This document shows, piece after piece, positions 19,625 to 30,942 of a stretch of 64,000 nt of DNA. The stretch covers positions 25,018-89,017 of the forward strand of contig PLUM01000069.1 in assembly GCA_003165465.1 (NCBI GenBank), read 5' to 3'. A program made the position numbers and the translations under genes. Numbering within the stretch: the first letter of the stretch is position 1; every line of letters starts with the position of its first letter. The notes below the pieces were generated by a model. That model did not search any database. It was not told the origin of the DNA and saw nothing but the letters and a program-made list of their open reading frames with translations. The stretch comes from Acidobacteriota bacterium (GTDB lineage: Bacteria > Acidobacteriota > Terriglobia > Acidiferrales > UBA7541).

Positions 19625-21322
19625 TCAATCCAGCGGCTCGATCTTCGCGATTTTTCCCTGATGCACTTCCGCGACCCACACGGCGACCGGAGAGCGCGAG
19701 TTGTCCACGTCGATGTGGCGGATATTGGCGTTCACCGTGGGCAGCAGGTACTCGGTGAAATTGCCCGTCCTGGGATCGAGGCGATCGACCATGTCGGCTC
19801 CCATTCCCGATGTCCAGGCATCGCCGTTCTTGTCGGTCTTCGCGGGATACGGGCCGAGCCAGGGCGTCGGCGCGGTCCACTCCTGGAACCTCTCCGTTTT
19901 CGGATCGAACATGCCGAGCTTGTTGGCGTAATACTCGCCAAACCAGACGCGATCCTCGGAATCGACCGACACGCGGCGCGGCCCGGAATTGAGCGTGGGC
20001 GTCTTGTATAACGTCACCTTGCCCGTCTTCCCGTCGATCTTTCCGATGTTGCCGCCGACGATGTCGCAAATGTACACGTTCGACTTCGAGTCCGCCGCCA
20101 GCCCGTAGGTGGAATGCCCGGTGGGCGTATCGCTGTAGCTGAACTGAATGATGCCGGAACTTTTTTCGTCCGGATGAAAATCCGGGTACATCGGATATGT
20201 GACGATGCGGCCCGTCAACGGATCAACCTTAAAGATCAAAAGATTTTCGCCGCCCGGAAACCACGCCGTTCCGTCCGGAGCGGCGGCGACTTGCGGCTGT
20301 ATGGCGTGCGAGGTGTTCCATTCCGGAGGAACGAGCCAGGTCTGAAATTTTTCCGTTCGCGGATCGAAGCGCGTGTATCCGCCCTGCCGGAATCGCGGGA
20401 TCCAGAGGAACCCGTCGCGATTGAACTCGATGGAAAGAGTGCCTTCCGGGAAACCCGGCTGCAAGGGCGGCATGCGCCATTCCTTGGTCTCTCCGGTGCG
20501 CGGATCGAGGCGGCCAATGAGCGGCTCGCGGAAATCGTTGTACCAGACCATGCCCTTGTCGTCGAGATCGGCGTCGTGCGGCAGGCGTCCGGAATCGGGC
20601 AGATCGTATTCGGTGACGATGACTCGCGTGGCTCGGCCCGTGGGACGCGGCAGCGTTTTCAATTCGTAGTTCCATTTGCTGGCCGCACTCAAATTGATCG
20701 TGGCCAGATATTTCGCGAATTCGGGATCAGGCTGAACAGCCACCTTGTAGGGCAGCAAGACCGGATGTTCGAGGACGGCCTGCTCCGAGTAGCTTCGCAT
20801 CCGCGCAAACGTCGTCAGCCATCCCTGCTCATCATACGTGCTCTGCACAATCGGCTGAAGCGAGTGGCACGCGGCGCAGCGAAAGAGCTGATTCTTCTGC
20901 CGCTCCGTGCCCGGAACGCTGAGCAACCATTCGGAACTGGTGAGCTGCGAAATAATGTCCTTGGTCTTCACCAGCTTCAGGTCGGCGCGGCGCGTGGCAC
21001 CCTTCGCGACTTCGACCGACACGGGTTTTTCCAGATCGTAGCCAACGGCGCGGATATCGATATTGAATTTGCCGGGCGCAAGCCGGTTTGCGGGAAATGA
21101 GTAGCGCCCCTCATGATCGGTGACGACGGCGACGGCAATCGTTTTGCCTACGCCCTTGGCGCGAACCACCACGCCTTCCATCGCCCCTCCCGCTTCCGAA
21201 CTCACGCGCCCCGCCAGCGCCACGCGCGCGGCCTTTTGCGCGGGAGCGGGAACCGGAGCGGGCGCAGCCAGCGCGCTCCCCGCACAGATCAGCAATGCCA
21301 ACAAAGCCAATTTCATCCGCAT
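19625..21322 (-). CDS. secreted carboxypeptidase-regulatory-like / CXXCH / Vgb-like propeller protein
   Basis: 565 aa; 'LAGRVSSEAGGAMEGVVVRAKGVGKTIAVAVVTDHEGRYSFPAN', one heme motif 'FRCAACHSLQ', then repeated 'IGRLDPRTGETKEWRMP' blades. Confidence 0.75.
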   Translation of the reverse strand: MRMKLALLALLICAGSALAAPAPVPAPAQKAARVALAGRVSSEAGGAMEGVVVRAKGVGKTIAVAVVTDHEGRYSFPANRLAPGKFNIDIRAVGYDLEKPVSVEVAKGATRRADLKLVKTKDIISQLTSSEWLLSVPGTERQKNQLFRCAACHSLQPIVQSTYDEQGWLTTFARMRSYSEQAVLEHPVLLPYKVAVQPDPEFAKYLATINLSAASKWNYELKTLPRPTGRATRVIVTEYDLPDSGRLPHDADLDDKGMVWYNDFREPLIGRLDPRTGETKEWRMPPLQPGFPEGTLSIEFNRDGFLWIPRFRQGGYTRFDPRTEKFQTWLVPPEWNTSHAIQPQVAAAPDGTAWFPGGENLLIFKVDPLTGRIVTYPMYPDFHPDEKSSGIIQFSYSDTPTGHSTYGLAADSKSNVYICDIVGGNIGKIDGKTGKVTLYKTPTLNSGPRRVSVDSEDRVWFGEYYANKLGMFDPKTERFQEWTAPTPWLGPYPAKTDKNGDAWTSGMGADMVDRLDPRTGNFTEYLLPTVNANIRHIDVDNSRSPVAVWVAEVHQGKIAKIEPLD

Positions 21323-24603: not shown

Positions 24604-25644
24604 TTACTGCTTAGGCAGAGGCGTCGCATCTGTCCTGACTGGCAGGATCGGCAATTCAATTCTAGGTTGCTCGCCCGTAAGCGTTTGCAGGAAAGCGACG
24701 ATCGCGTCTTCCTCCTTTTCGGTAAGCTTCTGCCCGAGTTGGCTGGTGCCCATGATGGCCACCGCCTGCCTCAGACTCCAAACCTGCCCGGAATGAAAGT
24801 AAGGCGCCCTCAATGCCACGTTGCGCAGCGGGCCTGCGCGGAAGACATATTCGTCGCTGGCCGTCTTAGTTACCGCGAAGCGTCCCTTGTCGTTCGGCGG
24901 CAAGATATCCGCCCCGGGCTTTTCGACAACGCCAAATGGGAAATAAGCTTTGCCGCCCACGTTGATGCCGTTGTGGCAAGCTGAGCAGCCTTTGTCCATA
25001 AAGAGTTTCAGGCCTTCCTTTTCCTGTGCGTTCAAAGCATTGGCATCACCTTCGAGAAACTGATCGAAATGCGAACCAGGGGTAATCAGCGTCGCTTCAA
25101 AAGCCTCGAGCGCCTTAGCGACGTTGTCAAAGGATACGGGTGAAGCCTCCTGGGGAAAGGCTTTCTTGAACTGCTCGACATAGCCTGGCATTGATTTCAA
25201 AGTCGTCTCTACTAGCGCGGGTGTGGCGTTCATTTCGACGCCCGCCTGCATCGGCCCCTTGGCCTGCGCTTTCAGATCCTCGGCACTGCCATCCCAGAAC
25301 TGAGCGATGTTGAAAACGGCGTTGAAAACCGTCGGGGCACGGCGCGGTCCCTTTTGCCAGGCGTGACCAATCGATGTGGGCCCTGCATCCACGCCACCGG
25401 TGCCCAGGTTGTGGCACGAGTTGCAACTGATGATTTGGCTGGCCGACAGTCGCGGATCAAAGAACAACATTTTGCCAAGTTCAATTTTTTCATGAGTGAC
25501 AGCATTGTTCTTCACGGCTGGGACAGCGGACGGAATTGGTTTGAAAGTTTGTTGAGCCGATTGCATCAGATCATCTGCTCGCGCGGGCAGCATCACGCCA
25601 AGCAACACCACGAGACTGGCCGCACACTGTACGATTCTTTTCAT
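24604..25644 (-). CDS. di-heme cytochrome c peroxidase family protein
   Basis: Two CXXCH motifs (SCNSCHNLG, GCSACHNGI), 'LGKMLFFDPRLSASQIISCNSCHNLGTGGVD', 'FRAGPLRNVALRAPYFHSGQVWSLRQAV'. Confidence 0.93.
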   Translation of the reverse strand: MKRIVQCAASLVVLLGVMLPARADDLMQSAQQTFKPIPSAVPAVKNNAVTHEKIELGKMLFFDPRLSASQIISCNSCHNLGTGGVDAGPTSIGHAWQKGPRRAPTVFNAVFNIAQFWDGSAEDLKAQAKGPMQAGVEMNATPALVETTLKSMPGYVEQFKKAFPQEASPVSFDNVAKALEAFEATLITPGSHFDQFLEGDANALNAQEKEGLKLFMDKGCSACHNGINVGGKAYFPFGVVEKPGADILPPNDKGRFAVTKTASDEYVFRAGPLRNVALRAPYFHSGQVWSLRQAVAIMGTSQLGQKLTEKEEDAIVAFLQTLTGEQPRIELPILPVRTDATPLPKQ

Positions 25645-25832: not shown

Positions 25833-26471
25833 TCACGGCATGCTCGGCACCCTCGGTGAAACCGAGACTCTGTGCGCGCGAACCACGAATCGCTCCGGCG
25901 CCGCTCCGACGTAGTAAAAGGGGAAGCACGTAACCAACGTTAGCGCCGGTTCGCTCGTCGGCTGGAGCACCCGCACCGCAGTCGGAGGTACGACTGCAGT
26001 CCATTCCACCTGGTAGTGGAATTCACGATCAGGCGTTCTTAAGATGATGGAGTCGCCGGGTCGAGCATTGCGCAGCGGCCGGAAAATTCCATCTCGATGG
26101 CCTGCCAGGGCGATGTTTCCTGCTTCGCCCGGCAGCGCGGTTTCCGGGAGATGCCCGATTGCGCGCCGCAGCAGGTTTTCTGAATCGCCCTGAACGACAA
26201 TCGCTCTCAGCCCCAGGCGCGGCATTTCGATTTCGCCGATCACCCCGCCATCAGCGATGGATGCCGCCTTGACAGCGGGCGGCTCGGCAAGCACGGTTAC
26301 CGCCTCAAACTTTGACGTCTCGACTTTCTGATACCAATATTGGTCAAGCAACGCGTAACCCGCATAGGCGAGCGCGATGATCCCCGCCGCAAAAAGCACA
26401 TAGTGAGCCGCTCGCAATACTCGCGGTGTTAGCCCTTCCGCATCGTGCCCGATGGAAATGGTCACCCTCAT
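25833..26471 (-). CDS. class D-like sortase
   Basis: 212 aa; N-terminal TM, 'IGEIEMPRLGLRAIVVQGDSENLLRRAIGHLPETALPGEAGNIALAGHRDGIFRPLRN...LTLVTCFPFYYVGAAPERFVVRAHRV': catalytic His (AGHRDG), Cys (TLVTC) and Arg (ERFVVRA). Confidence 0.92.
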   Translation of the reverse strand: MRVTISIGHDAEGLTPRVLRAAHYVLFAAGIIALAYAGYALLDQYWYQKVETSKFEAVTVLAEPPAVKAASIADGGVIGEIEMPRLGLRAIVVQGDSENLLRRAIGHLPETALPGEAGNIALAGHRDGIFRPLRNARPGDSIILRTPDREFHYQVEWTAVVPPTAVRVLQPTSEPALTLVTCFPFYYVGAAPERFVVRAHRVSVSPRVPSMP

Positions 26472-27463
26472 GAGCGATCCTTCACGGCTCCGGCCGCAGT
26501 CCGATTCCGCGGCGAGGCAATATATCCGGAGCGCGTCCGTACCTGCAATTTACCCCGTCCGGGAGCCCTCACTTCCACACGAATCTTGCGGAACGATTCG
26601 TCGTTTCTCATCTCTGGATCATATCCAACCGTGTATTGGTCGCGGAGATCGCGCGCAATGCTTGCAGAGATGTCCGAAACGGATTGTCCCTCCGCGGGGA
26701 AAAAAGCCAATCCGCCCGTATCCTTGCATAGACGCCGGAGGACGCCTGGATTCTCTTCTTCTTCGTCCGAACCGACCAGTCCTATCGCATAAATCACTAC
26801 TTGCGACCGGCGTGCCATATCCAAAATGTCCGAGTACTTCCGCTTGCTCGCGTTGTCTCCACCATCGCTGACGATAATCAGAGCTTTCTTATCCGAGCGG
26901 CCGAGTTGCAGATGCTTCAGCCCTTCGGCCACGGCGTCGTAAAGCGCTGTCATCCCGCGCGCGGAGACCTCCGAGACGGCCTGCGCCAGTTCCCGTGGAT
27001 TATTGCTGAATGGTTTTCCGCCCGGCAGTTCCACGGACACGTTGTCGCTGAAATCCACCACGAACATTTCATCATTCGGATTGCTCGATTGCGCGAAGGC
27101 GGAAACGGCCGTAGCTACGCCCGGGAGCTTCGGACCCATGCTGCGGCTGTGATCCACTACCAGCCCTACTGTTACTGGCGTGTCTTCCTGGCTGAAAAGT
27201 GTAATTTGCTGCGGTCGCCCATTCTCGTACACGCGAAACTGTTCTTGTGTTAGTCCGATGACAAAATCTCCGTTCGCGCTGGTTACGCGAACAGGCAACA
27301 CCACCAGCGTCGTCTCCACGGAAATCGTGCCCTGATCGGTGGATGTCGACGGCGCCCGTTGTGGGGTGTGCGAGTATGCCGGCGCGGCGCACAAAAGAAC
27401 CCCTGCGGCGAGAATGGCGCAGGTGCAACGGATTCCATTACGGATTGACACAGTGAAATTCAT
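26468..27463 (-). CDS. secreted VWA-domain protein (VWFA-related, Acidobacteria-type)
   Basis: 'VRVTSANGDFVIGLTQEQFRVYENGRPQQITLFSQEDTPVTVGLVVDHSRSMGPKLPG' with MIDAS-like DxSxS; stop overlaps the sortase ATG by 4 bp. Confidence 0.88.
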   Translation of the reverse strand: MNFTVSIRNGIRCTCAILAAGVLLCAAPAYSHTPQRAPSTSTDQGTISVETTLVVLPVRVTSANGDFVIGLTQEQFRVYENGRPQQITLFSQEDTPVTVGLVVDHSRSMGPKLPGVATAVSAFAQSSNPNDEMFVVDFSDNVSVELPGGKPFSNNPRELAQAVSEVSARGMTALYDAVAEGLKHLQLGRSDKKALIIVSDGGDNASKRKYSDILDMARRSQVVIYAIGLVGSDEEEENPGVLRRLCKDTGGLAFFPAEGQSVSDISASIARDLRDQYTVGYDPEMRNDESFRKIRVEVRAPGRGKLQVRTRSGYIASPRNRTAAGAVKDRS

Positions 27464-27542
27464 GGAGAAACCTCCTTGCGCCGCAGGCCGTGACAACCGT
27501 TCTTGCCCGCGGCGCAATGGAGTTTCGATGTGTTCACGATGT

Positions 27543-28205
27543 TCAGCTCACGAATCGCTTCAGAATGAATGCGAAGCTAACCGAGATTACGCCGAACAAC
27601 GCGATCAGCGGGATCTGGCTTGCCGTCTTCGGCAAAGTTGGAGTTGATGCCACAGTTTCCGGGGCCGGGGCCGGAATCGCCTCGGCAATCGGGACTTCCT
27701 TTTGCTCGGGAGTTTCGGCCACGATCGTCTCGCTCTTGAATTCCTCGACGGTTGTGGGCTCGGTTTGAACCGCCGGGATGGTCTCGTGGGTCACCTCGGC
27801 GAGCTCAATTGCACGAGCCTTCGGGTAGACAAACTCCTGGCCGCCATTTTCGCCAGGATAGAACCAGGCCTTTAATGCCACCGGTTCATTACCGGGCCGC
27901 TCTGTGAACTTCATCACGTTGTCGTCGGTGGGCGTCAGTCGCTGGTTAGGAATCGCCAGCACGGTTGCGATCAGCTTAGACCTGTCGGCATTGTAAATGC
28001 GTACGATATGGCGATTCCCAAAGGTCTCATACAGTTCGATCGTATAAGTACCCGAGGGAAGCACTTGCCCGGGAATTTCCACGGGCTGGGTAAAAGTGAC
28101 CACGGTTCGCTTGCTAAACGCTGTATCGGCTCGCGCACCTGCAGCAAACGTGACCATGAGTAATGTAACTGTGAAGATCGTTAGGATAGTCCTCATTATT
28201 TTCAT
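27543..28205 (-). CDS. secreted protein with C-terminal LPXTA sorting signal (putative sortase substrate)
   Basis: Signal peptide MKIMRTILTIFTVTLLMVTFAAGARAD; C-terminus LPKTA-SQ-IPLIALFGVISVSFAFIL-KRFVS; adjacent to the sortase gene. Confidence 0.85.
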   Translation of the reverse strand: MKIMRTILTIFTVTLLMVTFAAGARADTAFSKRTVVTFTQPVEIPGQVLPSGTYTIELYETFGNRHIVRIYNADRSKLIATVLAIPNQRLTPTDDNVMKFTERPGNEPVALKAWFYPGENGGQEFVYPKARAIELAEVTHETIPAVQTEPTTVEEFKSETIVAETPEQKEVPIAEAIPAPAPETVASTPTLPKTASQIPLIALFGVISVSFAFILKRFVS

Positions 28206-28764: not shown

Positions 28765-30942
28765 ATGAACAGTAAAATTTCGTATTTCACACTTGTGGCG
28801 ATCGCTTTGGCCACTCTGCTGGGCGTTGCGCGTACCGCCCGCACGGCGGGCAAACCTGCCGCGGAAATCAAGATTGTCGCCGACGACATCGGCGGCGTGG
28901 TCACCAGCTCGAAAGGTCCGGAAGCCGGCGTCTGGGTGATCGCTGAAACCAAGGATCTGCCCACCGGCTATCGCAAAATTGTCGTCACCGACGATCAGGG
29001 CCGCTACGTGATTCCCGAGCTTCCGAAGGCGACGTACGACGTCTGGGTGCGCGGCTACGGCCTCGTGGATTCGCCCAAGGTGAAAGCCGCGCCCGGAAAA
29101 ATGCTCAACCTGACGGCCGTGATCGCGCCCGACGCGCGTGCGGCTGCGGACTATTATCCCGCCGCCTACTGGTATTCCCTGCTGCACATTCCGCCGAAGA
29201 GCGATTTCCCCGGCACGGGTGAAAAAGGAAACGGCATCTCCGAGCGCATCAAGGACCAGGGCAACTGGGTGGAACTGGTGAAGACCGACGGCTGCGAAGC
29301 CTGCCATCAGCTAGGCGACAAAGCCACGCGCACCATTCCCTCCACGCTCGGCGCGTTCGATAATTCCTCCGCCGCATGGGACCGCCGCATTCAGTCCGCG
29401 CAGGTCGGCAGCATGATGAGCGCCGTCGCGACGCGCATGGGCCGCAAGCGCACACTGGCCGAATACGGCGACTGGACCGACCGCATCAAGGCCGGCGAAC
29501 TGCCGCCCGCTCCTCCGCGCCCGGAAGGCATGGAGCGCAACGTCGTCATCACCCAGTGGGACTGGGCCGGTCCAAAGGAATATTTCCACGACGAAATTTC
29601 CGTGGACCGCCGGAATCCGAGTTCCAACCCGAACGGCCTCGTTTACGGCGTTCACGAAGACAGCTCGGACTTCATGACCGTCTTGGATCCGACCAAGAAC
29701 TCGTTTACCCAGGTTGCGATCCCATACAAACCGGGCACTCCCATGTACGAGCCGGAAGAACTGCTGGAACCTTCGCCGTATTGGGGAACAGAGCAGGTTG
29801 CCGTCTCGCACGTCTCGGCGCACAGCCTGATGATGGATTCCAAGGGCCGCATCTGGACCGCAGGCGCCACGCGCGCCCCGGAAAATCCGGCCTACTGCCA
29901 AAAGGGATCGAGCCTCGAATCGGCGCTCGTGCTTCCGCTGAAGAACAGCTCGCGGCAGACGAACGTCTACGATCCCAAGACCGGGAAATGGGACTTCGTC
30001 GATCTGTGCACCAGCTCGCAGCACCTGATGTTTGCCGAGGACGCGAACAATACCCTCTGGTTCAGCAATCCCGGCGGCGATAACGTTGGCTGGCTGAATA
30101 CGAAAATGTGGGATGAAACGCACGACGCCGAAAAATCGCAGGGCTGGACGCCATTCGTCCTCGACACCAACGGCAACGGCAAGCGGGACGAATACACCGA
30201 GCCCGGCCAGCCGATGGACCCCAATAAGGACATGCGCATCAAGGTGGGTTTCTACGCCGTAAACCCAAGCCCGTTGGACGGCTCGCTCTGGGGTACGGTT
30301 CTGGGCTTCCCCGGCGCCATCGTTCGCCTGGTGCCTGGTTCGGACCCGGCGCGCACTGCGCTTGCGGAAATCTACGAAGTACCGTGGAACAACCCGAAAG
30401 CGCCCGTGCAGGGCTTTTCTCCGCGCGGCATGGACATCACCCGCGATGGCGTAATCTGGACCGTTCTCTCCAGCGGACACTTCGCCAGCTTTGACCGCCG
30501 CAAGTGCAAGGGCCCGCTCAACGGCCCTACGGCCACCGGCCAGCACTGCCCCGAAGGCTGGACGCTATACCGCACGCCCGGCCCGTCCTTCCAGGGCACC
30601 ACGGAATACGGCAGCGCCGACACCAACTACTACAACTGGGTCGACCAGTTCAATGTGTTCGGCCTGGGCAAGGACACTCCGATCGCCACCGCGAACGGCA
30701 CGGATGCGCTCGAAGCCCTCGACCCCAAGACCGGAAAGTTCCTCGTGATGCGCGTTCCCTACCCCATGGGCTTCTTCGCCAAGAGCATGGACGGACGCAT
30801 CGACGATCCCAAGGCCGGCTGGAAAGGCCGGGGAATCTGGTCCACATACGCCACGCGCACGCCCTGGCACCTCGAAGGCGGCAAGGGCACCACCAGCAAG
30901 GCCGTGAAGTTCCAGTTGCGGCCCGATCCGCTCGCGAACTAA
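28765..30942 (+). CDS. secreted carboxypeptidase-regulatory-like / CXXCH / propeller-like protein
   Basis: 725 aa; 'GGVVTSSKGPEAGVWVIAETKDLPTGYRKIVVTDDQGRYVIPELPKATYDVWVRGYGLVDS', single 'CEACHQLG', then long propeller-like region. Confidence 0.72.
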   Translation: MNSKISYFTLVAIALATLLGVARTARTAGKPAAEIKIVADDIGGVVTSSKGPEAGVWVIAETKDLPTGYRKIVVTDDQGRYVIPELPKATYDVWVRGYGLVDSPKVKAAPGKMLNLTAVIAPDARAAADYYPAAYWYSLLHIPPKSDFPGTGEKGNGISERIKDQGNWVELVKTDGCEACHQLGDKATRTIPSTLGAFDNSSAAWDRRIQSAQVGSMMSAVATRMGRKRTLAEYGDWTDRIKAGELPPAPPRPEGMERNVVITQWDWAGPKEYFHDEISVDRRNPSSNPNGLVYGVHEDSSDFMTVLDPTKNSFTQVAIPYKPGTPMYEPEELLEPSPYWGTEQVAVSHVSAHSLMMDSKGRIWTAGATRAPENPAYCQKGSSLESALVLPLKNSSRQTNVYDPKTGKWDFVDLCTSSQHLMFAEDANNTLWFSNPGGDNVGWLNTKMWDETHDAEKSQGWTPFVLDTNGNGKRDEYTEPGQPMDPNKDMRIKVGFYAVNPSPLDGSLWGTVLGFPGAIVRLVPGSDPARTALAEIYEVPWNNPKAPVQGFSPRGMDITRDGVIWTVLSSGHFASFDRRKCKGPLNGPTATGQHCPEGWTLYRTPGPSFQGTTEYGSADTNYYNWVDQFNVFGLGKDTPIATANGTDALEALDPKTGKFLVMRVPYPMGFFAKSMDGRIDDPKAGWKGRGIWSTYATRTPWHLEGGKGTTSKAVKFQLRPDPLAN

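Follow-up and report, generated by a model that had tools for sequence, protein, structure and literature searches.

A small sortase operon, conserved in Acidobacteriota, that probably anchors a periplasmic protein in a diderm host

The stretch of DNA analysed here (64,000 nucleotides, "the window") carries three closely packed open reading frames, all on the minus strand, which in transcription order encode a secreted sortase substrate, a secreted VWA protein and a sortase (Table 1). A sequence-only reading of this DNA had placed three packed genes at these positions, and an ORF check of the window returned them there. A gap of 79 bp separates the substrate and VWA genes. The VWA and sortase genes overlap, as that reading had also proposed: the sortase ATG (from 26471) and the VWA TGA (ending at 26468) share the letters ATGA, which suggests that translation of the two proteins may be coupled. 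The longest possible VWA reading frame begins at a TTG at 27517; the ATG at 27463 is the likelier start because an AAGGAGG-like ribosome-binding site lies just before it. About 190 bp past the sortase, on the same strand, lies a MauG/di-haem cytochrome c peroxidase gene (24604-25644, minus strand). Two genes that flank the trio (19625-21322, minus strand, and 28765-30942, plus strand) each encode a carboxypeptidase-regulatory-like domain together with Vgb-lyase/propeller-like repeats; in the profile search, the second of these reached no curated cut-off.

Table 1. Features of the three-gene locus; coordinates are positions in the window.
Feature	Coordinates	Strand	Content or basis
Sortase substrate, 220 aa	27543..28205	-	Signal peptide, beta-rich domain, proline/alanine-rich linker, LPKTA sorting signal
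Sec signal peptide of substrate, residues 1-26, end ...GARA	28128..28205	-	Hydrophobic N-terminus; A26 nearly invariant; predicted cleavage site
Substrate N-domain "subN", residues 34-136	27798..28106	-	Family alignment; ends in conserved WFYPG...G.EFVYPK..A..LA
LPKTA motif, residues 191-195	27621..27635	-	Sequence; predicted cut between T194 and A195
C-terminal hydrophobic helix and KR tail of sorting signal	27546..27620	-	AlphaFold2 helix 198-219, sequence
VWA protein, 331 aa, TIGR03436 family	26468..27463	-	Signal peptide, MIDAS, without sorting signal
Sortase, 212 aa	25833..26471	-	N-terminal TM (about residues 24-42), His125, Cys182, Arg194
ATGA overlap, VWA stop / sortase start	26468..26471	-	Sequence

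The last gene product is a member of the sortase superfamily with an intact active site and a predicted transpeptidase activity. It scores 107.2 bits against Pfam PF04203 (E=6.1e-31; cut-off 26.6) and 73.3 bits against TIGR01076 (cut-off 39.35), and H125, C182 and R194 are invariant in an alignment of homologues (175/175). The proposal of a sortase that keeps its N-terminal TM and its His/Cys/Arg residues thus passed the HMM check, and loss of the catalytic residues in close homologues, which would have told against it, was not seen. The class assignment is less clear-cut. By score, class D ranks first (NCBIfam models NF033746 and NF058671), followed by classes E (89 bits) and GN, and none of these scores passes the cut-off of its own class: the SrtD model gives 136 bits (cut-off 140), the class D model 120.3 bits (cut-off 165) and the GN model TIGR03784 83.1 bits (cut-off 158.25). 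The 17 trio sortases put to the same test all hit the class models that the window sortase hits. Among solved structures, 4d70 and 2ln7 come closest; we take them to be, respectively, SrtD of Clostridium perfringens and SrtC, a class D enzyme, of Bacillus anthracis. The earlier description of the enzyme as class D-like therefore stands insofar as class D is its nearest class; formal membership, at scores below the curated cut-offs, does not. Its specificity looks class D-like, since LPxT(A/G)S here compares with LPNTA(S) and LPQTGS, the motifs of the two class D enzymes that have been studied. Membership of class GN is ruled out by score, by the type of target and by the sortase tree.

The substrate ends in LPKTA-SQIPLIALFGVISVSFAFILKRFVS, a C-terminus that a sorting-signal profile recognises at E=3e-14. 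Among the signals of 71 named loci (see below) the consensus is L-P-x-T-(A/G)-S-x-L-P-L-I, in which the residue after LPxT is Ala in 59 and Gly in 10, and the next is Ser in all but one (70/71). In the AlphaFold2 model of the protein (mean pLDDT 87), a linker separates the domain from the anchor. No Pfam family scored over its cut-off for the substrate, and the full-length model found no fold in the PDB with E<=0.001 (best E=0.2, with low TM-scores). DUF2911 was considered for the substrate domain and rejected as sub-threshold (E=0.057 for the window protein; up to E=0.1 for 4 of 15 relatives). The subN domain is also found in short proteins that lack a sorting signal, so that the signal behaves as a suffix on a domain able to exist alone.

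The VWA protein is a clear member of the acidobacterial family TIGR03436 (195.6 bits; cut-off 81.25) and also scores over the Pfam VWA cut-off (E=9e-14, 53 bits). Its AlphaFold2 model (pLDDT 86) has a VWA fold by Foldseek (E=4.5e-12), and its MIDAS is intact (D104-x-S106-x-S108/T172/D200), with these residues kept in nearly all trio VWA proteins. As the sequence-only reading had noted, it has no sorting signal of its own. Genome-wide, 14 TIGR03436 proteins score over the cut-off, and only the two trio members lie near a sortase; members of the family are in part paired or clustered (contigs C20 and C103). Because the VWA gene is coupled to the sortase gene, yet absent from most sortase loci, its product would be an accessory rather than the anchored product.

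The draft genome of this soil bacterium (4.6 Mb, 89% complete, 6.9% contamination (6.86%)) has Terriglobia MAGs of Acidobacteriota as its nearest named relatives. By profile search it holds exactly two sortases, two substrate-domain proteins and two sorting signals, all of them in two complete trios; the signal profile matches only these two proteins (E=3e-14 and 6e-12), with the next match at E=0.7. The dedicated set of sortase, target and VWA protein that had been proposed is thus borne out, and it occurs twice. The second trio, on the 4.8-kb contig C46, has the same gene order and also the 4-bp VWA-sortase overlap. Contamination is an unlikely source of it, as another genome of the genus (G475) carries a trio much like it (L245). 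With LpxC and Omp85 encoded in the genome, the host is an LPS diderm, in agreement with the diderm host first suggested. Its MurE carries DNPR, the motif of DAP-adding MurE and so of DAP-type peptidoglycan.

Conservation was assessed in two sets of loci. A search with a profile of trio-type sortases found 80 named loci, a set biased towards trios because the query profile is itself trio-type. A VWA gene lies directly upstream of the sortase at 59 of these, 41 of which share the 4-bp overlap, and 55 of the 80 are full trios. A signal-bearing gene lies upstream of the sortase at 71 of the 80, as against signal-like C-termini in 9 of 1601 background ORFs (0.6%), and chance adjacency is rejected on this comparison. 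The synteny check that the earlier reading had called for, with absence of conserved adjacency as grounds for dropping the idea, therefore left it in place. Three records with the titles Betaproteobacteria, Planctomycetota and Cyanobacteria (L141, L164 and L195) have trios or VWA-sortase pairs placed among those of Acidobacteriota, and look like mislabelled MAGs.

The second set, 100 sortase loci examined from 396 genomes drawn evenly over Acidobacteriota, gives a broader picture. A sortase homologue occurs in 82 of the 396 genomes (about a fifth of species). A signal-bearing gene adjoins the sortase at 75 of the 100 loci (38 of these with the same substrate domain), and a VWA gene is present at 17. 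On these counts—75 loci with a signal neighbour, only 17 with a VWA gene—the core module is substrate plus sortase; the trio is one form of it, with the VWA gene as an accessory in one broad section of the tree. VWA labels cluster on the sortase tree far beyond shuffles. A single origin of the VWA insertion did not emerge from this quick tree, which needs 19 changes, with only 2 forced by starred branches. In a comparison of 151 class genomes, signal and sortase occur together in 53, signal only in 1, sortase only in 8 and neither in 89 (Fisher p=7e-31, a value that overstates the association because the genomes are related). Two of these counts weigh against an anchoring function, namely the 25 of 100 phylum-sampled loci at which no signal-bearing neighbour was detected and the 8 of 61 sortase-bearing class genomes without a signal at the threshold used.

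The pairing of signal and sortase is not always one to one, e.g., two same-genus genomes (G478 and G496) have three signals and one sortase each. The extra signals include a second signal-bearing substrate encoded divergently, immediately next to the trio, in two same-genus genomes (L246:6251-7438 and L248:6776-7501, both plus strand), and a substrate-VWA pair with a sorting signal that lacks an adjacent sortase (L247 and L249), the trio being elsewhere in the genome. Several Bryobacterales-labelled loci have a gene of about 580 codons inside the sortase operon, between the substrate gene and the VWA or sortase gene, whose product (e.g., L153:2271-4007 and L174:3172-4941) has by eye, with no profile, the look of an NAD-dependent malic enzyme.

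We consider the trio to be, on balance, probably a self-contained protein-anchoring operon, in which a sortase of the inner membrane joins the substrate to periplasmic meso-DAP peptidoglycan, with the VWA protein in an accessory role. The substrate would leave the cytoplasm through Sec and stay lodged in the inner membrane by means of its C-terminal helix; there the sortase would cut LPKT↓A between T194 and A195 and keep the substrate as a thioester on Cys182. The substrate would then pass to an amino group. The likeliest is the side-chain amine of meso-diaminopimelate, in either lipid II or peptidoglycan, which would leave the beta-domain covalently bound to the wall in the periplasm. The VWA protein would be soluble and periplasmic, made in coupling with the sortase, itself unanchored and not needed for sortase action as such; its MIDAS may bind the anchored protein or another envelope partner. 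We infer the cleavage site, the acceptor, the periplasmic location and the VWA role, with DAP as acceptor modelled on the class D enzyme of B. anthracis (PMC3297441), a model that may not carry over given that the present sortase scores below the curated class D cut-offs.

The acceptor is also where an unlikely alternative departs from this scheme, namely that the sortase makes a polymer or conjugate, joining substrates pilus-like through the EFVYPK lysine or to a lysine of the VWA protein. A protein acceptor could be used, since EFVYPK is strongly kept among signal-bearing proteins (lysine in 108 of 130) and looks like VYPK, the lysine motif found in Gram-positive pilins, and Lys112 of the VWA protein is Lys in 41 of 46. 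The substrate lysine is, however, Arg in 15 of the 130 and E/A/Q/H in 7, and with 22 of 130 replaced, pilus-type assembly through EFVYPK finds no support as a general rule. In the pilin motif a Trp stands 9 residues ahead of the lysine; the invariant Trp of the substrate stands 15 ahead. The class C score of the sortase (66.5 bits; cut-off 160) and the absence of a DP(W/F) lid from its sequence point the same way. A peptidoglycan acceptor is favoured over a fixed protein lysine because the homologue alignments of both substrate and VWA protein contain no invariant lysine. It is about equally improbable that the sortase serves maturation only, hydrolysing the signal for the most part and so freeing the beta-domain into the periplasm to work with the VWA protein. 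Sortases do hydrolyse their thioesters when an amine is absent, and the stand-alone, signal-free subN proteins suggest that the domain can work unanchored; yet those same relatives make a soluble protein without any signal, against which keeping signal, helix and basic tail at 71 of 80 sortase-adjacent loci would be a costly route to the same end.

True surface display, the function for which the sequence-only reading had named the locus, is less likely again. It would have the anchored protein or the VWA protein cross the outer membrane and act as an adhesin, a role for which VWA domains with an intact MIDAS, which often bind ligands, and the linker between substrate domain and anchor would be suited. 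The trio nevertheless has neither a lipobox nor a secretion gene, and nothing in it marks a protein for export through the outer membrane; the only export signal of the VWA protein is that for Sec, and the sortase sits in the inner membrane with a probably periplasmic acceptor. Display was not borne out, and periplasmic anchoring to peptidoglycan is the simpler account. Starting from that preferred reading of wall anchoring, one doubtful extension makes the trio a sortase-built envelope tether, in which the C-terminus of the substrate sits on peptidoglycan while the beta-domain and the metal-dependent VWA protein hold the outer membrane or build a periplasmic polymer. If true, this would be a Gram-negative use of a sortase in a role comparable to that of Braun's lipoprotein.

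Teaching usually presents sortases as a hallmark of bacteria with a single membrane, and in one review of how the cell envelope evolved they count as unknown among strictly Gram-negative phyla (PMC7203096). Against that view stand the sortases of 82 of 396 Acidobacteriota, with an intact active site and with a signal gene at 75 of 100 loci. Because the operons are small and self-contained, the attachment target of a Gram-negative sortase becomes directly testable, and the trios give one branch of a large, unexplained acidobacterial VWA family a concrete setting. Six sortases have been counted, without follow-up, in the Candidatus Solibacter genome (PMC3174227); the literature searched, in which subscription journals are thinly covered, held no description of the trio or of its substrate domain.

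The closest parallels come from class D. The B. anthracis class D enzyme cuts LPNT↓A with m-Dpm as nucleophile (PMC3297441), and SrtD of C. perfringens prefers LPQTGS and has a target gene with LPQTGS in its operon (PMC4498605). The trio resembles these systems (B. anthracis SrtC/SrtD with BasI/BasH; C. perfringens SrtD) in catalytic triad, N-terminal TM, best-scoring class, LPxT(A/G)S-type signal and target gene adjoining the sortase, and differs from them in its sub-cut-off scores, its LPS-diderm host, another substrate domain and a VWA gene in the operon. A second parallel is the "marine" class GN sortase TIGR03784 with its target TIGR03788, a VIT/VWA protein ending in LPXTG (Haft 2011, PMC3237569), which likewise sets a dedicated sortase beside one target in Gram-negatives and involves a VWA domain. 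There, VWA domain and signal are united in one protein of 600-900 aa, whereas the trio divides them between two products, a small beta-domain protein that bears the signal and a VWA protein that is not anchored; in a profile search, TIGR03788 matched no trio protein. Genuine GN pairs do exist in Acidobacteriota, with VIT-VWA targets at L125, L126 and L132 (and L123 slightly below the cut-off), and the acidobacterial GN sortases, a class named for marine proteobacteria, form a clade separate from the window-type sortases. The trio belongs with a known kind of system, the dedicated sortase-target cassette.
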